Below, piece after piece: positions 3,038-14,005 of a stretch of DNA of 28,845 bases. Every line of letters starts with the position of its first letter. The first letter of the stretch is position 1. The notes under the pieces are model-generated. The model did no database searches. It saw nothing but the letters and a program-made list of their open reading frames with translations, and was not told where the DNA came from. This stretch comes from a virus: positions 1-28,845 of IMG/VR virus record IMGVR_UViG_3300029923_000343. One strand, 5' to 3'. The translations under genes and the position numbers were made by a program.

Positions 3038-4012
3038 ATGGCTTTATCAGGTACATCTTCGAGTACTCCAGCACCATCAATGCCTAGCGTACCAGTAGTT
3101 TCAGCTGCTCCGGTTCCGTCCGCTAATAACCCCTTTATTGCAAGAGACTTAGACTTTGCTTCCGATTGGCTATCCGCTTTGTGGTATGGCGATTTCGGTG
3201 TAGGTAAAACTTTTCTCGCTTGTTCTGCCGCCTTAGTCGATGCCTATAGTGATGTGCTTTATATCACTTTGGAAGGCGGCGAAAAAGGAATCAAGCAGTT
3301 GATTAAAGAAGGCAAGAAATTGAATATTGATGTCGGTAAGAGGGTACTTGTTATCCCTGTGCAGACGTACAAACAATATTCCAATATCTATGAATTCCTT
3401 AAGATTCATGTGAAATTCCGCGACAGTAATGACATTAAAAACTTACGTCGTCTTGAAGCACAGATTAAGGGATTCCCGCCTGCCGTATGTTCGGATGATG
3501 CCAAATTAGCGGAGATGATCCCCCAGCCCAAGATGATCCGTACAGTTATTACTGACTCCTTAACTGAGGCACAGAAATACTGTATGTATCAGTTACTCGG
3601 CATTGATCCGCTTACACAAAAACTGGATGCTGAACCAGATCAGGCTCAATTTGCTGAGTGGGGCAGATCACGTGAAATGATTCAGTTTCTTGTGCGCAGA
3701 TTGCGCGATCTGCCAATCAACAGTATTTTTATCTGTGGCCAAGATACCGATCAGGATACTTCAAAGAGATGGTTCTATACACCATTGCTTCCTGGTAAGT
3801 TAGCCGGCGATGTCCGCGGTCTTGTAGATGTCGTTGGTTATTATGGTACTATCCCATTAGAAGGTGGTAAGGTTACTCGCAGATTATTCCTTGTCGGTGG
3901 TGATTATAGTAATGCTCACATCGCCGCTAAGAACCGTTTCGGTGATAACCTCAAGGCAGCATACGTAGATAATCCTACGATGGAAACTATCTATCACTTA
4001 GACAACGATTAA
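3038..4012 (+). CDS. RecA-fold ATPase, Sak4-like recombination protein
   Basis: 324 aa with an AAGGAGG ribosome site. After a low-complexity Ser/Pro/Ala N-terminus (residues 1-35) comes a Walker A loop, G-D-F-G-V-G-K-T-F, near residues 51-59. A strand reading VLYITLEGGEKG and a Walker B-like strand (TVITDSL, near residue 170) follow, giving the layout of the phage nucleotide-binding AAA_24/Sak4 group. Sak4 proteins are RecA-like single-strand annealing or strand-exchange proteins. The DUF669-type gene after the RNA region is a common neighbour of Sak4-like ATPases in phage genomes and may be an SSB-like partner. The long insert between the Walker motifs is typical of these phage ATPases. Subfamily assignment is from motifs and context only. 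Confidence 0.75.
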   Translation: MALSGTSSSTPAPSMPSVPVVSAAPVPSANNPFIARDLDFASDWLSALWYGDFGVGKTFLACSAALVDAYSDVLYITLEGGEKGIKQLIKEGKKLNIDVGKRVLVIPVQTYKQYSNIYEFLKIHVKFRDSNDIKNLRRLEAQIKGFPPAVCSDDAKLAEMIPQPKMIRTVITDSLTEAQKYCMYQLLGIDPLTQKLDAEPDQAQFAEWGRSREMIQFLVRRLRDLPINSIFICGQDTDQDTSKRWFYTPLLPGKLAGDVRGLVDVVGYYGTIPLEGGKVTRRLFLVGGDYSNAHIAAKNRFGDNLKAAYVDNPTMETIYHLDND

Positions 4013-4041
4013 AAAATAAAAATCAAAACCCGCTTATTTAC

Positions 4042-4081
4042 CCGTTAAAAATCGATTTTATTTTTATATTATATTAATATA
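4042..4081 (+). promoter_or_regulatory. 40-bp repeated AT-rich element, copy 2; probable promoter of the RNA region
   Basis: Identical to 650-689. It lies 29 bp after the ATPase stop codon and directly before the long non-coding, structure-rich stretch. This is the position expected for a promoter that drives the structured RNA and tRNAs and possibly the DUF669 gene beyond. Confidence 0.6.
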
Positions 4082-4164
4082 AGATAGATAAGCAAAACGC
4101 AGTAATTTACCTTTAAGAAGTACTTTGGCATGATCCGAAGTATGTTGCTCGATAAAATATGATT

Positions 4165-4197
4165 CCGCGAAAGCGGCGGCAGCTGAGTAATCAGCTG
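4165..4197 (+). other. Two adjacent GNRA-tetraloop hairpins
   Basis: CCGC-GAAA-GCGG (4165-4176) is followed three bases later by CAGCTGA-GTAA-TCAGCTG (4180-4197). Both stems are perfect. GNRA loops often dock into receptors, so these look like tertiary-contact elements at the 5' end of the large RNA. Confidence 0.7.
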
Positions 4198-4262
4198 TTG
4201 TAAGTCCCCTAGTGCTTTCGAATAGCCGCGAAAGAACAAATACAACACTAGGAGATTTACAA
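4198..4262 (+). other. Nested RNA stem element
   Basis: TTGTAA (4198-4203) pairs with TTACAA (4257-4262). Inside, CCTAGTG (4208-4214) pairs with CACTAGG (4246-4252). Inside that, CTTTCG (4215-4220) pairs with CGAAAG (4229-4234). Three nested perfect helices with purine-rich asymmetric loops show a folded RNA and not a coding or spacer sequence. Confidence 0.7.
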
Positions 4263-4317
4263 CTGCTGATTAAGGGTTTCTTCCTAAAATTTTCCTTTCT
4301 TTAGCAGTTTGGATAGG

Positions 4318-4415
4318 TAGCTGGTTATTCAAGCCACTCAGACGGACAAAAATGTAGCTATATTATCCGTCCGATAATTATCCTGCATGGGCTGAGTGAC
4401 TTGAATAATCAGCTA
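4318..4415 (+). other. Long RNA stem with 24-nt arms
   Basis: Bases 4318-4341 pair with 4392-4415 over 24 positions, with one G-T wobble and one C-A mismatch. The 50-base head carries a smaller stem (ACGGA/TCCGT at 4342-4346 and 4366-4370) and a short palindrome at 4373-4382. It ends 7 bases before the first tRNA-like unit. There is no T-run, so it is a structural helix and not a terminator. Confidence 0.75.
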
Positions 4416-4422
4416 CTGATAT

Positions 4423-4516
4423 GAGAGTGTGATGCATGGTGACATACGAAGAGGCGCCCGCTGTTATTACAGTGACTTATCTCGGTACTACGGTTCAAAT
4501 CCGTACACTCTCACCA
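4423..4516 (+). tRNA. tRNA-like unit with encoded CCA; anticodon not assignable
   Basis: A 7-bp acceptor stem (GAGAGTG/CACTCTC, 4423-4429 and 4506-4512) is followed by A and an encoded CCA. The T arm is canonical: TACGG-TTCAAAT-CCGTA at 4489-4505. The interior, 59 bases, resembles a long-variable-arm (serine-type) tRNA but does not fold normally. The best anticodon-arm candidate is CGCTG-TTATTA-CAGTG (4459-4474), with a 6-base loop where 7 is standard, and the D arm is unclear. It may be a degenerate or highly atypical tRNA, or a tRNA-mimicking domain of the large RNA. Confidence 0.6.
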
Positions 4517-4552
4517 CGCGTTCCCGACGCGATTCGGCATGGTAAGGCCGAA
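4517..4552 (+). other. Two hairpins directly after the CCA end
   Basis: CGCGT-TCCCG-ACGCG (4517-4531) begins at the base after the tRNA-like CCA, and TTCGGC...GCCGAA (4533-4552) follows after one base. Hairpins abutting a tRNA 3' end suggest a processing border. Confidence 0.6.
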
Positions 4553-4580
4553 GTAAAATAAGCTTATGTTTCCCGGTGAT

Positions 4581-4661
4581 GGATCCTTGACCGTATAACG
4601 GAGTAATTCCATATTGAATCTGTGTATTGTATTTGAAGTATACACAGGTTTGGTAGGATCC
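4581..4661 (+). ncRNA. 81-nt cloverleaf-like element without a T loop
   Basis: GGATCCT (4581-4587) pairs with AGGATCC (4655-4661) as a 7-bp closing stem. Inside are three arms in order: CCG-TATAA-CGG (4591-4601), ATTC-CATATT-GAAT (4606-4619) and CTGTGTAT/ATACACAG with a 12-base loop (4620-4647). Size and layout copy a tRNA cloverleaf, but the conserved TTCRA T loop and D-loop GG are missing. It ends three bases before the next tRNA. It is probably a domain of the large RNA. Confidence 0.45.
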
Positions 4662-4664
4662 CAT

Positions 4665-4742
4665 GGTTCAGTAGTTCATGCATGCGGAAGAACAATGTGG
4701 TAGTAATACTGCAGTAGATGAGTTCGAGCCTCATCTGAACCA
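4665..4742 (+). tRNA. tRNA with 8-base anticodon loop; identity uncertain
   Basis: Acceptor stem GGTTCAG/CTGAACC (4665-4671 and 4735-4741) is perfect, with discriminator A and no encoded CCA. The D stem is GTTC/GAAC (4674-4677 and 4690-4693). The T arm is ATGAG-TTCGAGC-CTCAT (4718-4734). The anticodon arm fits only as TGTGG/CTGCA with two wobbles around an 8-base loop TAGTAATA (4701-4708). No 7-base-loop alternative pairs, so the anticodon is not assigned. An expanded loop is the kind seen in frameshift-suppressor tRNAs. Confidence 0.75.
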
Positions 4743-4755
4743 ACAATGATAAAGA

Positions 4756-4822
4756 GATTAGATGCCCAGAAGCCGATCGAAAGATGCAGGTGCGGATACC
4801 CAGGTGGTTAAGACATCTAGTC
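4756..4822 (+). other. RNA stem domain with internal GAAA hairpin
   Basis: GATTAGATG (4756-4764) pairs with CATCTAGTC (4814-4822), nine pairs with one G-T. The interior holds ATC-GAAA-GAT (4776-4785) and GGT-GCGGAT-ACC (4789-4800). It starts 13 bases after the second tRNA. Confidence 0.55.
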
Positions 4823-4861
4823 AATAGTCTGTGGAAACAAAAAGTCGTAAGACAGGGGACG

Positions 4862-4982
4862 CTCTAAACTTACAGTAGTGGGAAACGCCTTGCTGCGAAG
4901 TAACTTGCTATGTAGAACAATATGCGCTACACAGATTGGGATGTGCTATTGAACAAACCTACATCTTAGGTAAGCATGAGAG
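4862..4982 (+). other. Long-range RNA domain
   Basis: CTCT (4862-4865) and CTTAC (4869-4873) pair with AGAG (4979-4982) and GTAAG (4970-4974). Enclosed are CAATA/TATTG near 4918-4950 around CACA-GATTGGGA-TGTG, and ACCTA-CATCT-TAGGT (4957-4971), which competes with part of the closing stem. The pairings are plausible but individually short. Confidence 0.4.
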
Positions 4983-5066
4983 AATGGGTCCAGAATTGAT
5001 GTGCACTGCACTGTGTGTACAAACCAGCAGATAGGTGGAAAGCCTATAGTCATTGTTTTATTTTGC

Positions 5067-5129
5067 GTCTAAAGGCTGAGGTAAGAGGACCTACGTAAGT
5101 AGTTGATAGTGGAACAATAACCTTTAGAC
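5067..5129 (+). other. Perfect 9-bp stem with internal hairpins before the third tRNA
   Basis: GTCTAAAGG (5067-5075) pairs perfectly with CCTTTAGAC (5121-5129). Inside, two mutually exclusive hairpins can form: AGGT/ACCT (5079-5092) and CTAC-GTAA-GTAG (5091-5102). Competing folds inside one closed domain could be a switch or simply alternatives. It ends 10 bases before the tRNA. Confidence 0.65.
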
Positions 5130-5139
5130 AGTTTTACAT

Positions 5140-5212
5140 CCGAGATTAGTAGAAGTGGCATAACATGCGGGTTTAAGACCGCATAACGCAGGTTCGATTC
5201 CTGCATCTTGGA
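5140..5212 (+). tRNA. tRNA with 8-base anticodon loop (UAA or UUA anticodon)
   Basis: Acceptor CCGAGAT/ATCTTGG (5140-5146 and 5205-5211) has one G-T; the discriminator is A and CCA is not encoded. The T arm GCAGG-TTCGATT-CCTGC (5188-5204) is canonical. The anticodon stem TGCGG/CCGCA (5166-5170 and 5179-5183) closes an 8-base loop GTTTAAGA. Depending on which base is extra, the anticodon is UAA (leucine, codon UUA) or UUA (would read the stop codon UAA). The variable loop has 4 bases, unlike the long arm of bacterial tRNA-Leu. The D stem is weak although the loop has the conserved GG. Confidence 0.8.
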
Positions 5213-5262
5213 CAAGTGCTTAAATGCACATATCATCACGGGCTAAAATTTAGTGGGTGGAT

Positions 5263-5282
5263 AAGTTACGCCGTGGTAACTT
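5263..5282 (+). promoter_or_regulatory. Leader hairpin before the DUF669-type gene
   Basis: AAGTTAC (5263-5269) pairs perfectly with GTAACTT (5276-5282) around GCCGTG. Upstream, CTAAA/TTTAG near 5243-5253 forms another small stem. The hairpin ends 33 bases before the start codon, leaving the GTAGGAGG ribosome site free. It could insulate translation from the upstream structured RNA. Confidence 0.5.
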
Positions 5283-5315
5283 TGGTCGGGCGAAAGGATG
5301 GCGTAGGAGGATTCT

Positions 5316-5831
5316 ATGGATAATACTTTTAATCTCGGTGGAGCCACCGAAACAGCCGGCGTCAAAGCAACTGCGAATACCGAATCGATGGTATTCAACC
5401 TCAATGATGTTGAGGAATCGGCATCTTCCTTTGAAGTGCTGCCTAAGGGTACATACAATGCTGTGTTCGAAGAGTTTGAATTAACTGAATCGGCCAGTAG
5501 CGGTAACCCAATGTTGAAGGCCGTGTATTCGATTACCGACGGCGAATTCGCCGAAAGAAAAGTTTTCGATTACTATGTGCTTGCCGGCAAAGGATCCGAG
5601 TTTGCATTACCGAAGGTCAAGCAAATTCTTTCTCGCGTTTGTCCTGAAGTGGATATGTCAACTTTCAATCCGAAGAAATTTACGGATGACGGCACGATCA
5701 TTAACAGACTGTGCCAGATCAAGCTGGGTATCACCACGCAGAAAAAAGGCGATTACAAGGGAGAAAAACGTAATCAGGTCAAAGAGATCTTGGCTGCGAA
5801 TGAAGTCGGCGGCGGTTCATTCCTAGGATAA
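5316..5831 (+). CDS. DUF669-type protein, probable single-strand DNA-binding partner
   Basis: 171 aa with an AGGAGG ribosome site 5 bases upstream of ATG. The body from about residue 30 (a VEESASSFEVLPKGTYNA segment, then ELTESASSGNPMLKAVYSI) matches the DUF669 pattern: a beta-rich domain with a P-x-G-x-Y start and a conserved central helix. The C-terminus ends in a flexible GGGSFLG tail, which recalls the protein-contact tips of SSB proteins although it is not acidic. DUF669 genes commonly accompany Sak4-like ATPases in phages, and here one lies just beyond the RNA region, so an SSB-like role in recombination or replication is likely. An intrinsic terminator follows 15 bases after the stop. 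Confidence 0.7.
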   Translation: MDNTFNLGGATETAGVKATANTESMVFNLNDVEESASSFEVLPKGTYNAVFEEFELTESASSGNPMLKAVYSITDGEFAERKVFDYYVLAGKGSEFALPKVKQILSRVCPEVDMSTFNPKKFTDDGTIINRLCQIKLGITTQKKGDYKGEKRNQVKEILAANEVGGGSFLG

Positions 5832-5921: not shown

Positions 5922-6191
5922 ATGTCAGCTGAAGACTTTGAAGGTATTAAGGAATTAGCTAAACGTAATCACACAGAAAGAGTTGCTAAAACTCCAGAGC
6001 GAATTCAATACGCATTAGACCAGCTTGCAAAAAATGAAATTGAATTTACGCTAAAGAATTCACAAACGGGACATTTTCATGCACGATCTAGGAATGGTAA
6101 ATTATATCAATTCTGGGCTAGCACGGGAAAGATCTTAGGTTGTGAAACTCGCGGGATACACAATTTCATAAAGCTCTTGCTTCGTGATTAA
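5922..6191 (+). CDS. Small phage protein, function unknown
   Basis: 89 aa with an AAGGAGG ribosome site. The N-terminal half is a charged helix; the second half reads as a compact beta/alpha unit (an IEFTLKNSQTGHFHA strand pair, then a QFWASTGKI strand and a C-terminal helix). The alternation of strands with aromatic and basic residues is like small phage proteins that bind nucleic acid or other proteins, but I recognise no motif. It lies just after a terminator, so it needs its own promoter in the 42-base gap or read-through. It is followed by another small gene 17 bases on. Confidence 0.65.
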   Translation: MSAEDFEGIKELAKRNHTERVAKTPERIQYALDQLAKNEIEFTLKNSQTGHFHARSRNGKLYQFWASTGKILGCETRGIHNFIKLLLRD

Positions 6192-6208
6192 AAGAAAGGG
6201 ATGATATT

Positions 6209-6388
6209 ATGCCAGATCAAGAAGTAACAAATTGGGACGTTTTTAAAGATCGTACAGAGTCGCTGTTACGCCGATGGGATAAGTTTGCAAAAGCTAATCC
6301 AACAGAAGCACAGAAATCTATAAAGGGATTTCTTGCTGAAGTAAATGACGGTTATACAACGGCATTATTGAAGGATTTATTTAAATAG
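6209..6388 (+). CDS. Very small acidic/basic helical protein, function unknown
   Basis: 59 aa from ATG 6209 to TAG 6388, with an AAAGGGATG ribosome site. The sequence begins MPDQEVTNWDVFKDRTES and is predicted wholly helical, with alternating charged and hydrophobic residues and two tryptophans. No family recognised. It follows the 89-aa gene closely and precedes a structured leader. Codon use and the ribosome site match the neighbours, so I take it as real. Confidence 0.55.
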   Translation: MPDQEVTNWDVFKDRTESLLRRWDKFAKANPTEAQKSIKGFLAEVNDGYTTALLKDLFK

Positions 6389-6519: not shown

Positions 6520-7494
6520 ATGTTTGGTGATTATCAAGAGCAGACACAGTCAGCCTACATCAAGGAACATATTGCATTGACACCAGAACAAGCGATGTTG
6601 ATGGATTGGGGACTTGGTATCGGAGGCGAATCAGGCGAAGTACAAGATATTATAAAACATCACGTATTTCATCATGCCGATCTAAACAAGATGGAATTGG
6701 CGAAAGAATTAGGTGATGTTCTTTGGTATCTTACAGCTATTGCTGAAGCCACTGATATGAAGGTAGACGATATCGCCGATTTGAATTTGGCTAAAACTGC
6801 TATGCGTTATTCCGATGGGATAGCGGCAACAGCTTTAAAAGAAAATCGGCAGGCTAAAGATGAGTTGTTTAAAGCTTCCATTCCTTATCGGGTTATTTCA
6901 TCGCGTATTACGCATTCAAAGGCGCCGATGAATATTATCTTTGTTGGTCCGGATGGTGGAGGCAAAACGACACTGGCAAAAGCGGTAGCGGAAAAGGTCG
7001 GATTCAAATATCAAAAGTGTGATTGGCGTCAAGAGGATAAGCCTGAATTGGCTGTTTCTTTATTAGAATCACAAATTGATGTTGTTTATGACCGTTTCTA
7101 TTGGCCAGACGAAGCAATCTATAGCAAGGTCAAGAAAATTGATATGCCCGCCGAATATTGGAAAAAATTCGATAAGGTAGTCGAGCTTCTTTGTGATTAC
7201 AACACCCTAATTATTTATGTCGACGCTTCAGAAGCAATTTTGCGCGCGCGTAGTAAGGTATGGGCAGATGATTACATAAACGTCAATCAATTGGAAACAA
7301 TTAAGAGGCAATATGCCGGATGGCTTCGATATCTGGAAACCATCCGTATTTCAACGATGAAGATAGATACTTCAACCATTCTCCCGGAGTCAGCTGAGTT
7401 CGACATGCTTGTTACAGGCTGCGTCGAGGCAATCAAAGCAGGACAAAAAGTTTATGCACGTGTGTTAGTTGAGGGTGAAATCGATGAGGGCTAA
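6520..7494 (+). CDS. MazG-like pyrophosphohydrolase fused to a nucleoside monophosphate kinase-like domain
   Basis: 324 aa, AGGAGG ribosome site. Residues about 25-105 are a MazG-type all-alpha NTP pyrophosphatase: G-E-x-G-E-V-Q-D (E-x-x-E) followed by E-L-G-D-V-L-W-Y (E-x-x-D), the metal-binding set of that family. Residues about 143-300 are a P-loop kinase of the thymidylate-kinase type: Walker A G-P-D-G-G-G-K-T-T, then D-R-F-Y-W-P-D (the DR motif of dNMP kinases) and a lid-like region with R-A-R-S-K. The fusion could hydrolyse one nucleotide triphosphate and phosphorylate a monophosphate product. It is the first gene of the preQ0 operon and overlaps the transporter gene by 11 bases. The substrate is not shown by the sequence. 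It may tune the dNTP pool for replication of modified DNA; that is inference. Confidence 0.8.
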   Translation: MFGDYQEQTQSAYIKEHIALTPEQAMLMDWGLGIGGESGEVQDIIKHHVFHHADLNKMELAKELGDVLWYLTAIAEATDMKVDDIADLNLAKTAMRYSDGIAATALKENRQAKDELFKASIPYRVISSRITHSKAPMNIIFVGPDGGGKTTLAKAVAEKVGFKYQKCDWRQEDKPELAVSLLESQIDVVYDRFYWPDEAIYSKVKKIDMPAEYWKKFDKVVELLCDYNTLIIYVDASEAILRARSKVWADDYINVNQLETIKRQYAGWLRYLETIRISTMKIDTSTILPESAEFDMLVTGCVEAIKAGQKVYARVLVEGEIDEG

Positions 7495-8203
7495 AAAAGT
7501 CAATCGTGTAACACCGCTTTTCATGTTCTTCGGTATTCTCTTTACGGCCTGTATTTTAATTTCCAACATCATCGCAATCAAGCTGATTACTATCGGCCCG
7601 TGGACATTAACAGCAGGTGTTATTGTCTTTCCCATTTCATACATACTGAGCGATATCGTCGCAGAAGTATACGGATTCAAAGCTGCTAGAAGCATTATGT
7701 GGACAGCATTCGCAATGAATCTGTTAATGGTTATTATGTTTGAGATTACCATCGTACTTCCCGCACCAGTGTATTTTACATTATCCGGTGCCGTCGCTTC
7801 AGTATTAGGTAATACGCCCAGATTGTTAGTTGCTGGACTTACTGCTTATGTTTTAGGCTCCTATGCGAATGCCGCTGTGCTAAGCCGAATGAAAGTTCTT
7901 TCCGCAGCAAGACAGGGTAAGAAGGATATTGCTATTAATTCAAATAAGGGATTCGGTTGGCGTGCTATTATTTCTACTATTGTCGGCGAAACGATTGATT
8001 CATGTATTTTTATTCCTCTTGCATTTATAGGATCGGTACCAGCGGCGCAAATACCTTCGATGATTATTCTTCAGATTTGTGTTAAGACCTGCTATGAAAT
8101 TGTTGTGTTACCCATAACGCGTATATTGGTTAAGTGGGTAAAACAATATGAAAGTATCGACACATATGATATTGGCGAAAAGTATCATATTGTCGGCGAA
8201 TAA
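7484..8203 (+). CDS. yhhQ: Queuosine precursor transporter, YhhQ (VUT/QPTR) family
   Basis: 239 aa from the ATG at 7484, chosen because GAGGGTG lies about 6 bases upstream; it overlaps the preceding gene. Six or so hydrophobic segments are visible. The family signature is clear: a first membrane segment followed by S-N-I-I-A-I-K, then P-I-S-Y-I-L-S-D-I-V-A-E-V-Y-G and A-A-R-S-I-M-W, and a later G-E-T-I-D-S-C-I-F. YhhQ family proteins import preQ0, preQ1 or queuine through the cytoplasmic membrane. Beside the full QueD-QueE-FolE-QueC set this gives the phage two routes to the modified base: synthesis and scavenging. The length fits the family. Confidence 0.85.
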   Translation: MRAKKVNRVTPLFMFFGILFTACILISNIIAIKLITIGPWTLTAGVIVFPISYILSDIVAEVYGFKAARSIMWTAFAMNLLMVIMFEITIVLPAPVYFTLSGAVASVLGNTPRLLVAGLTAYVLGSYANAAVLSRMKVLSAARQGKKDIAINSNKGFGWRAIISTIVGETIDSCIFIPLAFIGSVPAAQIPSMIILQICVKTCYEIVVLPITRILVKWVKQYESIDTYDIGEKYHIVGE

Positions 8204-8214
8204 GGAGAATCGCT

Positions 8215-8658
8215 ATGGAAGTAACAAAAGAAGTCACATTTGATTGCGCGCATATGTTATCCGGCTATAAAGGCCTGTGTTCTAACCTACACGGCCACAC
8301 GTACAAATTACAGGTTACACTCTGCGGCACAGTAGATAGTGAAACGCATATGCTAATGGATTTTAATCTCCTGAAAGAGATGATCCAAGAAGAAGTTATG
8401 GCTAGATTCGATCATGCTACTGTGTTTAGCTCGCCTAAATATAGGAACTGCGTCGAAGAGGCCATATTCGGTACCTGCAGCATATACGAATTGAAGTTTT
8501 TCGAAATGCCGACTATTTATCCCAGATCAACAGCAGAGTGTATGGCACGCTATATTCAATCAAGATTCAAGCAACGCATGAACGGCTTGCGTCCAATTAC
8601 TATTTCGCAAATAAAAGTTAAGCTGTGGGAAACGCCCACATCTTTCGTGGAGGTATAG
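8215..8658 (+). CDS. queD: 6-carboxytetrahydropterin synthase QueD
   Basis: 147 aa. It converts dihydroneopterin triphosphate to 6-carboxy-tetrahydropterin, the second step of preQ0 synthesis. The zinc histidines are seen as C-A-H (residue about 12) and H-G-H (about 27-29), and the catalytic cysteine lies in L-C-S-N-L-H-G-H. M-D-F-N-L-L-K, F-D-H-A and P-T-A-E-C-M-A match conserved QueD segments (usually P-T-A-E-N). A short insert near residues 80-95 makes it longer than the common 120 aa. An AAGGAG site precedes it and it is 11 bases after the transporter. Confidence 0.9.
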   Translation: MEVTKEVTFDCAHMLSGYKGLCSNLHGHTYKLQVTLCGTVDSETHMLMDFNLLKEMIQEEVMARFDHATVFSSPKYRNCVEEAIFGTCSIYELKFFEMPTIYPRSTAECMARYIQSRFKQRMNGLRPITISQIKVKLWETPTSFVEV

Positions 8659-8660
8659 CG

Positions 8661-9308
8661 ATGTTTATAGCAGAGATTTTTGCCAGCGTACAAGGCGAGG
8701 GACATTATCTTGGCGTCCCGGCAGTATTCGTTCGTACTATGGGATGCAATCTCAAGTGCAGTTTCTGTGACACAAAATCAACATGGATTAATGCCCAATC
8801 AGGCGCGGCCAGAGCATTATCCGTAGCCAAAGTAGTTAGCGCAGTAAACTATGCGGCAGATGCAGCTAGAGAGTCATCGACTATCAAAGCGGAATTAGGC
8901 AGAACAATTCAACTTGTTGTGCTTACTGGCGGTGAACCTTGTTTGCAGGAGGATCTACACGCTTTGATCGATGCACTACATGGTGAGCATTATATTGTAG
9001 CCATTGAAACCAATGGTACGTTGGCTACTCCGTTGAATGCTGATTGGGTAACATGCTCACCAAAAGGTGATGCTAATTACATGATTAATGAATCATGCCT
9101 TCCGGATGAACTGAAATATGTTGTCACGGAAGACTTTGACGAGAAGGTAATTACCGAATCCATCAGGGATCGTTTCTTAGGCAATATTTGGTTACAACCA
9201 GATGGCTATCACATGCAACCGACTTGGGAAAAGTGTTTTGCGATTGCGCAATCTGATTCACGTTTGCGCGTCGGAGTACAATTACAGAAACTCATGGAGG
9301 TAAGATAA
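8661..9308 (+). CDS. queE: 7-carboxy-7-deazaguanine synthase QueE
   Basis: 215 aa from the ATG at 8661, 8 bases after GGAGG; an earlier in-frame ATG at 8625 lies inside queD and lacks a ribosome site. This radical SAM enzyme makes 7-carboxy-7-deazaguanine. The N-terminal [11 protein letters not shown] motif and the 4Fe-4S triad C-N-L-K-C-S-F-C (C-x3-C-x2-C) are intact. L-T-G-G-E-P (SAM-binding GGE motif) and E-T-N-G-T follow. It is followed by folE with a one-base TAATG overlap, so the two are translationally coupled. Confidence 0.93.
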
Positions 9309-9892
9309 TGGGTGAATATTTAACAGATTTGCATGAGCGTAGAGCAGCGGCAGTATTTGAATTACTGAATACGATTCCTGGTGAGTATGCTTCGCGTGAA
9401 GGCCTCCAAGAAACACCAGGTCGTGTTGCTCGTATGTATGATGAAATCTTCGGCGGATATGATATGTCGCCGGAAGCTATCTTAAGTAAGACTTTTCGCG
9501 ATGAAGAGCATAAAGAAATGGTCATTGTAAAAGATATCGATTTCTTTAGCCATTGTGAACATCACATGGTGCCCTTTATTGGAAAAGTGCATATTGCTTA
9601 CATACCAAATGGAAATTTGGTAGGTCTCAGTAAACTGGCGCGTCTTGTTGAATGTTATGCAAGACGTCTTCAGATACAAGAGCGCATGACTTCTCAGATT
9701 GCTGATGCGATTGAGGAGCAATTGAAGCCGATTGGTGTTATGGTTGTTATTAAAGCTGAGCATATGTGCATGGCAATGCGCGGTGTCAAGAAGCCGGGCG
9801 CCAATACCATTACCTCAGCTGTGCGGGGAGTTTTTCAAGATAATACCAATGTGGCCAGAGCTGAGTTTCTTAGCTTAATTGACTTAAAGTAA
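9308..9892 (+). CDS. folE: GTP cyclohydrolase I FolE
   Basis: 194 aa. It opens GTP to dihydroneopterin triphosphate, the first step of both folate and preQ0 synthesis. Zinc ligands appear as H-C-E-H-H-M around residues 79-84 and C-M-A near 156; G-L-S-K-L-A-R and the C-terminal M-R-G-V-K-K-P-G-A segment are family hallmarks. Length is normal. A phage copy beside queC, queD and queE indicates supply for preQ0 and not for folate. Start overlaps the queE stop. Confidence 0.95.
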
Positions 9893-9904
9893 GGAGCGCT
9901 TATT

Positions 9905-10588
9905 ATGAAGATTTTAGTTTTATGTAGCGGTGGTTTGGATAGTACAACACTATTGGCTATGGCTGCCAATGAAGCTGGCAATGATAATGTTGTTGCATTG
10001 AATATGTTCTATGGACAGAAACATGCGAAAGAGCAAGAGTTCGCCGTGTTCCAATGTGAAAAATATGGCGTCGAGTTGCTAAACGCTGATCTGTCCGAAG
10101 TCTTTCGCTTTAACAAAGATTGTTGTGCCTTATTGCAGGGAAGCAAAAGAGAGATCGCGCATAAGTCATATGCTGAACAGTTGGCTGAGCTTGGTGGCTC
10201 AGGCACAGTGTCCGCTTATGTTCCTTTTCGTAATGGCTTATTTTTGTCATACGCTACCGCCGTAGCAATCCAGCTTGAATGTGACGTAATTTATTATGGG
10301 GCACACGCTGATGATGCTGCCGGCAGAGCTTATCCTGATTGCACTCCTGAATTTATTGAAGCGATGCAGAATGCTATTTACGAAGGCACAGGAGGCAAAG
10401 TAAAAATGGAAGCGCCGTTCTGGAATAGTAATAAAGCGGGCATTGTTAAAATAGGTAAAGAGCTCGGTGTTGATTATGCACACACATGGAGCTGCTATGA
10501 GGGAAAAGAAAAACCTTGTGGCACATGTGGCACATGTATCGATCGTAAAGCGGCATTAGTCGCAAATGGTATCTATAATATAGATTAA
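9905..10588 (+). CDS. queC: 7-cyano-7-deazaguanine (preQ0) synthase QueC
   Basis: 227 aa. It turns 7-carboxy-7-deazaguanine into preQ0 using ATP and ammonia. The PP-loop S-G-G-L-D-S-T-T is at residues 8-15. The zinc cysteines are C-Y-E...C-G-T-C-G-T-C near residues 198-213. No glutamine amidotransferase domain is fused, in contrast to the Gat-QueC forms linked to archaeosine-type (dG+) phage DNA. An AAGGAGC site lies upstream, and an intrinsic terminator follows 10 bases after the stop. Confidence 0.95.
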   Translation: MKILVLCSGGLDSTTLLAMAANEAGNDNVVALNMFYGQKHAKEQEFAVFQCEKYGVELLNADLSEVFRFNKDCCALLQGSKREIAHKSYAEQLAELGGSGTVSAYVPFRNGLFLSYATAVAIQLECDVIYYGAHADDAAGRAYPDCTPEFIEAMQNAIYEGTGGKVKMEAPFWNSNKAGIVKIGKELGVDYAHTWSCYEGKEKPCGTCGTCIDRKAALVANGIYNID

Positions 10589-11482: not shown

Positions 11483-14005
11483 ATGTCGTGTGCAAATTGC
11501 TCATGTAATCATTATCCGCGACTTGGTAATGCTGCAATAGATATACAGCATACTTATGATTTAATGGTCATTGGCGAATCACCCACAGTAGCAGAAACAA
11601 GGCAGAATATAATGATGGGTGGTCCTGGAGGACAAGTATTAAAGGATACCTTAAAAAAAGTTGGTATGCCTTATTCATCCGATTTGGTATATTACACTGA
11701 TGCTATAAAATGTTCTGTGCCTAAGAAAAAAGGGCAGAAGTTTCCGAAGGACGCACCAGGATGTTGTAGAGATTACCTCTTATGGGAATACCGCGAAGTA
11801 AAGCCCAAATTGATACTTGTCTGTGGTGCAGTTGCCTTGCAGACTCTTACTGGTAATGATAAGCTGAAAGTTACAGAAGAGTATGGCAGGATAAAAGAGT
11901 ATGATTTTCTCCCTGGCGTCAAAGTAATACCGGTAATGAATCCTGGTGTTTTACTGCATAAGCCGGGAGACTACAAACCCTTTTTGTCGATGTTTCAATT
12001 AGCGGCCACAGTCTTTAATGACGGCGAATCAACTGATCCAGGTGAAACTAAATGGATTGTCTGTGATACAGAGGATAAATGTCGTGATTTGTGGAAATTG
12101 ATGATGTCCCAATATAAAGCGGGTACATTTGAATGTGCCTCTTATGATATTGAAACAACGGGATTGGATTATCGAATCGTTGATTTTCTTGTTTTGGGCA
12201 TCTGTTTCAAGAAAAATTTATCCTATGTTATTCCACGTGAGATGCGCCATGTAGTACACAACTTTATTGCAGGGATACCTTGGAAATGTGTCTGGCAGAA
12301 TGGTAAGTATGATAAAAAGGTTATGTGGCGCCGCCAGCTTGGCAATGTACAGATCGATGAAGATACTGAGTATCAACATTATACTTTGGATGAGACATCA
12401 GCGCATGACCTAGGTTACTTGACAAAGACATTCTTAAATGCCAAGGCGTATAAGTACAAGATGAACCAGAATTGGAAAGTTGTAACACTGGAGAATTTTG
12501 AAACTTATCGTGAAGCTATCTATGAGCGTGTTGCCGTTGACTGCGATTACACATTGCAATTAAAGCAAGTATTGCAGAAGAAGCTCGAAGAGCCAGGTAA
12601 CGAGAAGTTAATGAATCTGTATAAAACACTTCTTATTCCTGCGGCGAACTATCTTTCAAGGGTAGAGCAAAATGGTATGCTGATTGATCCTGAGTATCTT
12701 AACGTACTGGATAAGAAATACACTATTCTACTTGAACAGCTGTTAGTTGAAATCCAGGAATGTGCTGAACCATTCTGGAATCGTGAAATGTACATGGAAC
12801 AGATGGGTGCAAAGTCTGCAAGTGATATCTTCAAACCGAGTTCACCCAAACAGATGTCTTGGATGGTGTTTCGTCGATTAAAGCTACGCCCCCGCATTAA
12901 GAAGGGGGAAAGCACAAACAAAGAGATACTCGGTTCTATTGAGAATCCACCCCCTCTTATTAAGAAAGTGCTTGAATATCGTACAGTGCAAAAAGAGCAT
13001 TCCACATATGTACTTGGTCTATTAAATGCACGTGATGAAGATGGGCGTGTACGAACGACTTTTAACTTACACATTACTGCTACAGGCAGATTGAGTAGTA
13101 AAGAGCCGAACGTGCAGAATCAACCATCTGCACATGGCGTTGGGAATATACGTAAAGCATTTATTTCTAAACCGGGATTTATCTTGGCGGAGATTGACTA
13201 TTCAGGAGCTGAGCTACGTTGGCTGGCTTTCATGAGCAAATGTCCGGTTCTATCTGAAGTATTTATTCAAGGGCGTAACTTGCATAAAGAGACAGCAACA
13301 ACCTTATTTGGGCCACACTATACACCACAACAGAAGATGCGTGCTAAAGCCGTTAACTTTGGTATCCCATACGGACGTGAGGCCCACTCCATCGCGGAGG
13401 AGTTTAATATCTCAGATGCAGAGGCGCAGGACATGCTCGATGCCTGGTTGGATAAATACCATGGTGCGCGAGACTATCTGAAATGGTGTGCTGATCAGGT
13501 AGCGTTAGGTAAGTATTTGGAAACTCCTTTCGGTAGGCGTCGTCGCTTTGGTTTAGTATCACCGCAATCTTTACACGGCTTACAGAATGAAGCAAAGAAC
13601 TTCCCAATTCAATCGGCATCTTCAGACACACTTCTTTGGAGTTGTATGCAAATGGAAGATAAGCTCAGAGATGACTATCAAACGAATATGTTAGATCTGA
13701 TACATGACTCCACTGTACTTGAAGTTCCTGCTGATCCACGTATCATACAGGCAGTGGGCACTTATGCTAATCACATAATGGTAGAGACACCAAAGAAGTT
13801 ATTCGATTGTCCTATTCCATTTACTACTGATTTTGAAATTGGCGTAAATTGGGGAGACATGGGCGGTGTAGAATTCGATTACAATGATCCGAATCCTACG
13901 TCTGGTGAAGTCATGCATATCGAAAACAAAGACGGCTCAATCACAGATATGACCTTTGCTGATTGGTATAAACAAGTAACACAGCCACAAATTTTAATTG
14001 CATAA
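11483..14005 (+). CDS. Family A DNA polymerase with N-terminal uracil-DNA-glycosylase-like domain
   Basis: 840 aa. Residues about 1-180 look like a family 4 (Fe-S) UDG fold: cysteines at 3, 6, 77 and 94/95, a G-E-S-P start and a C-terminal strand before N-P-G-V-L-L, where active enzymes have H-P-x-x-L-L. The 3'-5' exonuclease has D-I-E-T-T (residue about 221), N-G-K-Y-D and Y-E-R-V-A-V-D-C-D-Y-T. The polymerase motifs are A, I-D-Y-S-G-A-E-L-R (about 571); B, R-A-K-A-V-N-F-G-I-P-Y-G (about 620); and C, I-H-D-S (about 742), where most family members have H-D-E. UDG-like N-termini also occur in SPO1-type polymerases. This is the likely phage replicase. The UDG-like part is probably not a normal uracil excision enzyme, because its key histidine is asparagine. 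Confidence 0.9.
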   Translation: MSCANCSCNHYPRLGNAAIDIQHTYDLMVIGESPTVAETRQNIMMGGPGGQVLKDTLKKVGMPYSSDLVYYTDAIKCSVPKKKGQKFPKDAPGCCRDYLLWEYREVKPKLILVCGAVALQTLTGNDKLKVTEEYGRIKEYDFLPGVKVIPVMNPGVLLHKPGDYKPFLSMFQLAATVFNDGESTDPGETKWIVCDTEDKCRDLWKLMMSQYKAGTFECASYDIETTGLDYRIVDFLVLGICFKKNLSYVIPREMRHVVHNFIAGIPWKCVWQNGKYDKKVMWRRQLGNVQIDEDTEYQHYTLDETSAHDLGYLTKTFLNAKAYKYKMNQNWKVVTLENFETYREAIYERVAVDCDYTLQLKQVLQKKLEEPGNEKLMNLYKTLLIPAANYLSRVEQNGMLIDPEYLNVLDKKYTILLEQLLVEIQECAEPFWNREMYMEQMGAKSASDIFKPSSPKQMSWMVFRRLKLRPRIKKGESTNKEILGSIENPPPLIKKVLEYRTVQKEHSTYVLGLLNARDEDGRVRTTFNLHITATGRLSSKEPNVQNQPSAHGVGNIRKAFISKPGFILAEIDYSGAELRWLAFMSKCPVLSEVFIQGRNLHKETATTLFGPHYTPQQKMRAKAVNFGIPYGREAHSIAEEFNISDAEAQDMLDAWLDKYHGARDYLKWCADQVALGKYLETPFGRRRRFGLVSPQSLHGLQNEAKNFPIQSASSDTLLWSCMQMEDKLRDDYQTNMLDLIHDSTVLEVPADPRIIQAVGTYANHIMVETPKKLFDCPIPFTTDFEIGVNWGDMGGVEFDYNDPNPTSGEVMHIENKDGSITDMTFADWYKQVTQPQILIA

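Follow-up and report, generated by a model that had tools for sequence, protein, structure and literature searches.

Structured non-coding RNAs lie among the tRNA genes of many phages, and the roles of the orphan RNAs of these tRNA islands, such as T4 species 1 and 2, GOLLD and ROOL, are largely open. GOLLD (RF01998) is a large structured phage RNA found near tRNAs, and its linkers can themselves contain tRNAs (PMC12286853). ROOL (RF03087) is a non-coding RNA of phage tRNA islands, including those of rumen phages, and the cow-rumen-3, cow-rumen-4 and skipping-rope RNAs (RF03083, RF02948, RF02924) are small structured RNAs found in phage tRNA arrays. Theta (HDV-like) ribozymes, which occur next to the tRNAs of gut phages, tie a structured RNA to phage tRNA maturation (PMC10879173). 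In T4, rnaC (species 1) and rnaD (species 2) are stable non-coding RNAs packed against the tRNA genes; rnaC is annotated as a small stable RNA and carries a T arm (GGGTTCGAATCCC) on a non-tRNA body. The T4 record gives no function for these RNAs, and as an analogy the precedent speaks to stability, not function.

The locus described here lies in a 28,845-base IMG/VR virus record, probably a fragment, from a virus of bacteria; this whole stretch was analyzed and is called the window. Between a Sak4-like annealing ATPase gene (3038-4012) and a DUF669 single-strand-binding-like (SSB-like) gene (5316-5831), the ORF listing shows no ORF of at least 60 amino acids on the + strand of 4013-5315, in agreement with an earlier claim of some 1.1 kb without a credible gene. 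The sole ORF entirely within this interval encodes 86 amino acids from a TTG start on the − strand. We found 14 relatives of the ATPase, most with the same gene order, and between the ATPase and SSB-like genes these relatives differ completely in sequence, over lengths of ∼0.2-1.4 kb in those displayed. What they have in common there is a promoter-like element at the start and, judged by eye, a G-rich leader before the SSB-like gene. The promoter-like element (CGTTAAAAAT-N13-ATATTATATTAATATA, 4042-4081, + strand) is an AT-rich, exact 40-bp duplicate of 650-689, and in the relatives it is kept upstream of a nuclease gene as well as of the RNA array, with 23 sites in the syntenic relatives against a shuffle mean of 0.3; the repeated promoter-like element noted ahead of this region is therefore real and recurrent. 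The leader (5250-5310, + strand) combines a strong ribosome-binding site with the G-runs GGGUGG...GGUCGGG, which by eye are present in most relatives while the remaining intergenic sequence is not conserved, and it may form a G-quadruplex or be a site of SSB autoregulation.

The preliminary description had proposed that this region is a giant structured RNA, either a GOLLD or ROOL RNA, a divergent member or a new class, and had suggested a search with covariance models. Using cmscan with Rfam 15, neither GOLLD nor ROOL nor any other large RNA was matched in the window at the gathering thresholds or in 3950-5400 at E ≤ 10, and the same search does detect ROOL in other records; ROOL also had zero matches in 13 syntenic records. 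At gathering, the only Rfam family in the window is tRNA. The permissive matches (E ≤ 10) besides tRNA are weak, mostly eukaryotic microRNA-type families placed on the long hairpins, with no HDV-like family among the matches of 3950-5400. Unlike GOLLD, the region has no single conserved long unit, and unlike ROOL, its two conserved elements, modules AB and C, are short (316 and 63 nt); Rfam matches them neither to cow-rumen-3, cow-rumen-4 or skipping-rope nor to any other family. Membership of GOLLD or ROOL thus finds no support, and the option of a new class fares better, as this is structured RNA linked to tRNAs with no Rfam class match.

All of the elements of the locus are on the + strand, in the order hairpin D, hairpin E, tRNA-like 1, linker, tRNA-like 2, module AB, module C and tRNA-like 3. 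Hairpin D (4160-4280), with an RNase III-like stem, and hairpin E (4312-4421), whose 25-nt arms are 92% complementary, are far more stable than shuffled sequences (z of −6.1 and −7.4, respectively), and the hairpin-bearing linker F (4517-4664) has a z of −2.9. The reported density of perfect helices is thus correct for the long hairpins but not uniform, since the segment occupied by AB (4742-5057) is unremarkable by folding energy (z of −1.0). Homologues of hairpin D with different stem sequences lie elsewhere in the array order in L003 (5333-5472) and L006 (6160-6270).

We scanned the whole 28.8 kb for strict tRNA-like units, defined by a 7-bp acceptor plus a T arm, with shuffled sequences as the control. 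There are three such units, at 4423-4512, 4665-4741 and 5140-5211; the remainder of the 28.8 kb has none, and the shuffles give 0.0. Each of the three has a perfect 7-bp acceptor and a canonical T arm, which confirms that the array is interleaved with tRNA-like units as first described. tRNA-like 1 (4423-4516) starts six bases past hairpin E, has an encoded ACCA end and a non-canonical anticodon region and is not accepted by ARAGORN. tRNA-like 2 (4665-4741; z of −2.2) has acceptor, D and T arms, and a GUAA (GNRA) tetraloop closes the 7-bp stem that forms its anticodon arm; AB starts one base past the 3′ end of this unit. Only tRNA-like 3 (5140-5213; z of −3.7) is accepted as a tRNA, with an RF00005 and ARAGORN match that units 1 and 2 lack, and it has an 8-nt anticodon loop (GUUUAAGA). 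A 7-nt decoding anticodon loop is hence absent from all three units, the loops having 4 nt in units 1 and 2 (constrained fold) and 8 nt in unit 3, and this suggests that tRNA-likes lacking an anticodon act as marks for RNA processing. Stop-codon recoding by these units was considered and rejected, as TAA ends 23 of the 25 genes examined. The same locus of the relative L007 contains more tRNA-likes with anticodon loops other than 7 nt (6151-6222, 6902-6967 and 7036-7152).

Module AB (∼316 nt, 4742-5057) corresponds to two of the three blocks common to the window and L003, the closest relative; the two form one RNA and co-occur in diverse phages. Its structure is evident from covariation among homologues. 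An outer helix P0 (4742-4749/5050-5057) encloses helix P1 (4756-4764/4814-4822), the core AAUAGUCUGUGGA directly after it (4823-4835), a variable domain, CAAACCAGC (5020-5028) and a terminal hairpin with a UGGAAAG loop (5031-5047). P1 flush with AAUAGUCUGUGGA, followed by CAAACCAGC and the UGGAAAG hairpin, defines the family, and all of these are present in the window. Core and hairpins are common to ∼15 diverse metagenomic phages and to cultured Acinetobacter and Ochrobactrum phages. The last hairpin is fully paired in each of 15 sequences and shows 22 double changes, a level reached by 0 of 500 shuffles, and P1 lies flush against the AAUAGUC core in most members, being individually significant in 9 of 15 (combined p ∼1e-8). 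P0, which stands out in L141, L144 and L148 and is also plausible in L003, L142 and the window, may be a further helix, a lead given that it is individually significant in few members. In L142 and L145 the AB copy is embedded in a tRNA array, several other copies have no tRNA within the retrieved stretch, and two are near genes that by inspection look similar to the replication neighbors. Module AB is a new RNA family, uncatalogued in Rfam.

Several other ideas about AB were dropped. The position of its rRNA-like words (GUCGUAAGACAG) is a variable GNRA-type hairpin in other members, and a role as guide RNA of the neighboring TnpB-like gene in L144 was set aside as other members have no such gene. 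A pattern scan of genome contigs gave two matches without the full AB signature, L174, on inspection an apparent chance match, and L175, which the AB search did not recover.

In cultured phages, blastn with AB members recovered the full AB signature in the Acinetobacter phages fJoAci01, fJoAci04, EAb13, TCUP2199 and Mystique and in Ochrobactrum phage ZX86. The Acinetobacter copies sit in ∼1.3 kb devoid of conserved genes, a stretch that follows tRNA-Asn downstream in the records that annotate this tRNA. Their P1 domain, G-CCCGnAUCCC...GGUYAAGA-C within a covarying stem, is 27/27 identical to that of many Ackermannviridae phages, in which it is part of an ∼200-nt RNA beside tRNAs, and in Klebsiella phage KP13-26 the domain lies between tRNA-Asn and tRNA-Thr. 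Matches to this RNA occur in 275 records (267 of them covering 80% or more of the query), and the hosts of the ∼270 sequenced phages, mostly Ackermannviridae, are mostly Salmonella, Klebsiella, E. coli and Dickeya. In a set of 14 sequences that includes two metagenomic AB members, covariation in the P1 domain is 0.672 versus 0.188 for shuffles (0/500), and the consensus fold of 14 Ackermannviridae sequences contains 10 doubly changed pairs. No Rfam match covers the P1 domain in the cultured phages, and in the records we looked at the RNAs either lack annotation or lie under small hypothetical ORFs. A search of the available literature on Ackermannviridae non-coding RNA or transcriptomes found nothing relevant. 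The domain has no match in the T4 tRNA region, which also differs from the locus in having two stable RNAs rather than a longer shuffled array.

A covariance model built from the P1 domains of cultured phages (CCCGNAUCCC..GGUYAAGA loop) plus the AB members L146 and L151 reached an E of 3.6e-4 in Vibrio phage K476, which is outside the model, and a marginal E of 0.17 in L003. In the window it gave a 7.8-bit, 9-nt partial match at the expected place (4805-4813), where the loop has an extra hairpin. The link of AB to the Ackermannviridae RNA runs through the P1 domain alone, and the window appears to join the wider P1-domain family only through L003 and other AB members.

The non-coding stretches of these phages have further contents. 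Klebsiella phage 0507-KN2-1 (L195 888-4406) has 3.5 kb without an annotated protein gene that holds the P1-domain RNA and four tRNAs, and a non-coding stretch of Shigella phage AG3 (L187 2207-2316) has a sub-threshold match to the sRNA STnc100 (33.7 bits, E of 5e-4). Several Ackermannviridae encode a conserved ∼147-nt tRNA-like RNA with a T arm, in a layout like that of T4 rnaC (L187 4217-4365, L191 3724-3873, L195 4088-4233 and L200 2135-2283).

Module C (∼63 nt, 5067-5129) was uncovered by an IMG/VR scan for one of the three blocks common to L003 and the window. It consists of helix P1 (5067-5075/5121-5129), a GGU..ACC hairpin (P2) and an invariant 3′ part (GUUGAUAGUGGAACAAUAA); the family is defined by covarying P1 and P2 with a GUUGAUANUNNAACAAUAACC 3′ core, all found at 5067-5129, where the covariance model scores 73.1 bits (E of 1.4e-19, the window being among the model's own sequences). 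The core GGCUUGGGUAAGAGGACCCUGUAAGUAGUUGAUAGUGGAACAAUAACC is near-invariant, and the outer stem varies freely in sequence with its pairing kept. Across 36 distinct sequences covariation is 0.302 versus 0.126 for shuffled alignments (0/500), with 0.123 for the best slide; P1 and P2 are supported, and the P3 pairs are invariant and hence uninformative. Covariation in homologues, the check proposed in the preliminary description, therefore supports AB and C alike. Module C had zero blastn matches in 50,697 phage and 72,556 plasmid records and is a new RNA family, uncatalogued in Rfam. Its AGAGGACC and GUAAGAG elements bear what we presume to be a likeness to the sarcin-ricin loop or to P12 of RNase P, and the idea of mimicry was set aside.

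A tRNA on the same strand lies within 1 kb of module C in 31 of 35 copies, often at 5-12 nt, as against 0 of 88 decoys, these being chance occurrences of the same 16-mer. ROOL is present in 18 of 33 C-bearing records and in 0 of 43 controls, which is to be read as an association and not as a rate because the controls are smaller on the whole and from mixed habitats; ROOL itself has no match in the window. Cow-rumen-3 or -4 or skipping-rope RNAs occur in two of the arrays with module C. In many arrays, the tRNA closest to module C is hundreds of bases away, and because of this variable distance module C is unlikely, in contrast to theta ribozymes, to be a cutter of tRNA ends in cis. Elsewhere (L078 906-962), a sub-threshold HDV-like ribozyme match (31.7 bits) lies directly 3′ of tRNA-Leu in the fashion of theta ribozymes.

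The arrangement of these elements is not fixed. Where the window has the block order A-B-C, L003 has A-C-B, with C inserted within AB, followed by tRNA-Met and then by hairpin D, which has shifted from first to last. Module C is absent from the 13 AB records searched, the 34 C records contain the AB 3′ pattern only as one opposite-strand match, and both modules are absent from the other 12 syntenic records. Judged from this distribution, AB and C are independent modules that are moved or exchanged separately.

We think it rather probable that the gene-free 1.3-kb stretch is an array of separate structured RNAs and tRNA-likes, in which tRNA punctuation releases trans-acting RNAs. One promoter, at ∼4042-4081, would read through D, E, AB, C and the three tRNA-likes and possibly into the SSB-like gene, and a single long primary transcript over the array is possible. 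tRNA punctuation is the most likely mechanism because the tRNA-likes retain the acceptor and T arms recognized by RNase P, RNase Z and CCA enzymes and yet, with no normal decoding loop, cannot decode; end-processing at these units would free AB, C and other elements as separate stable RNAs. Cleavage of the long hairpins by RNase III would perhaps contribute, and tRNA processing is presumably not the sole release route, given that C is often distant from a tRNA and several AB copies have none nearby. AB and C stand next to many different genes, from which we infer a trans-acting role for the released RNAs; their target would most plausibly be host translation or RNA metabolism, a guess based on the neighboring elements.

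The modularity bears directly on whether the stretch could instead be one giant ornate RNA of >1 kb, a new class with the tRNA-likes as internal domains and a cage or scaffold role like that of GOLLD or ROOL. Gene-free stretches of 1.3-3.5 kb with an AB domain also exist in Acinetobacter and Ackermannviridae phages, GOLLD linkers can hold tRNAs (PMC12286853) and ROOL is frequent in C records, all of which would suit such an RNA. However, its parts are separated by tRNA-like units, stand alone in other phages and are reordered in the closest relative, no giant-RNA family of Rfam matches, and in syntenic relatives the whole stretch is swapped for unrelated sequence of 0.2-1.4 kb, so the region is probably not one giant RNA and we consider this reading unlikely.

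That same hypervariability is what a host-conflict locus would show, and with the acceptor and T arms kept and the anticodon arm replaced, as by the GUAA loop in the window, the tRNA-likes together with AB and C could be decoys, immune-evasion mimics that bind tRNA-targeting defense enzymes or aminoacyl-tRNA synthetases. In C, however, the core scarcely varies, in contrast to an element caught up in an arms race, which makes this explanation improbable. The position between Sak4-like and SSB-like replication genes, in the window and its relatives alike, and the two AB copies beside similar-looking genes would fit a long regulated leader or replication element acting in cis on the SSB-like gene or on phage replication, with trans-acting RNAs unneeded. 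Against this, unrelated phages carry AB and C in their tRNA arrays, where the annotation places no SSB-like gene beside them, and relatives with a 209-nt intergenic region have neither module; we regard a purely cis-acting element as very unlikely. The array of separate RNAs released by tRNA punctuation thus remains our preferred reading.

More broadly, we see an even chance that the window is one case of a widespread, unrecognized phage locus, in which shuffling RNA arrays are punctuated by tRNA-likes and include an uncatalogued AB-P1 superfamily found in ∼270 cultured Ackermannviridae and other phages. If so, the role of this superfamily could be tested directly in cultured phages. AB and C add two covarying families to the orphan RNAs of phage tRNA islands, and because relatives of one of them occur in phages of Salmonella, E. 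coli, Klebsiella, Dickeya and Acinetobacter that are easy to grow, its function becomes directly testable in tractable systems.

Outside the array, three other parts of the window are of separate interest. A DNA polymerase A with an N-terminal domain of the uracil-DNA-glycosylase superfamily is encoded at 11483-14005, and a MazG domain is fused to a nucleotide-kinase-like domain at 6520-7494. The region 7469-10588 has a Pfam match to the transporter Vut_1 beside ORFs that by inspection resemble a queuosine/preQ0-type gene set (QueD, QueE, FolE and QueC).
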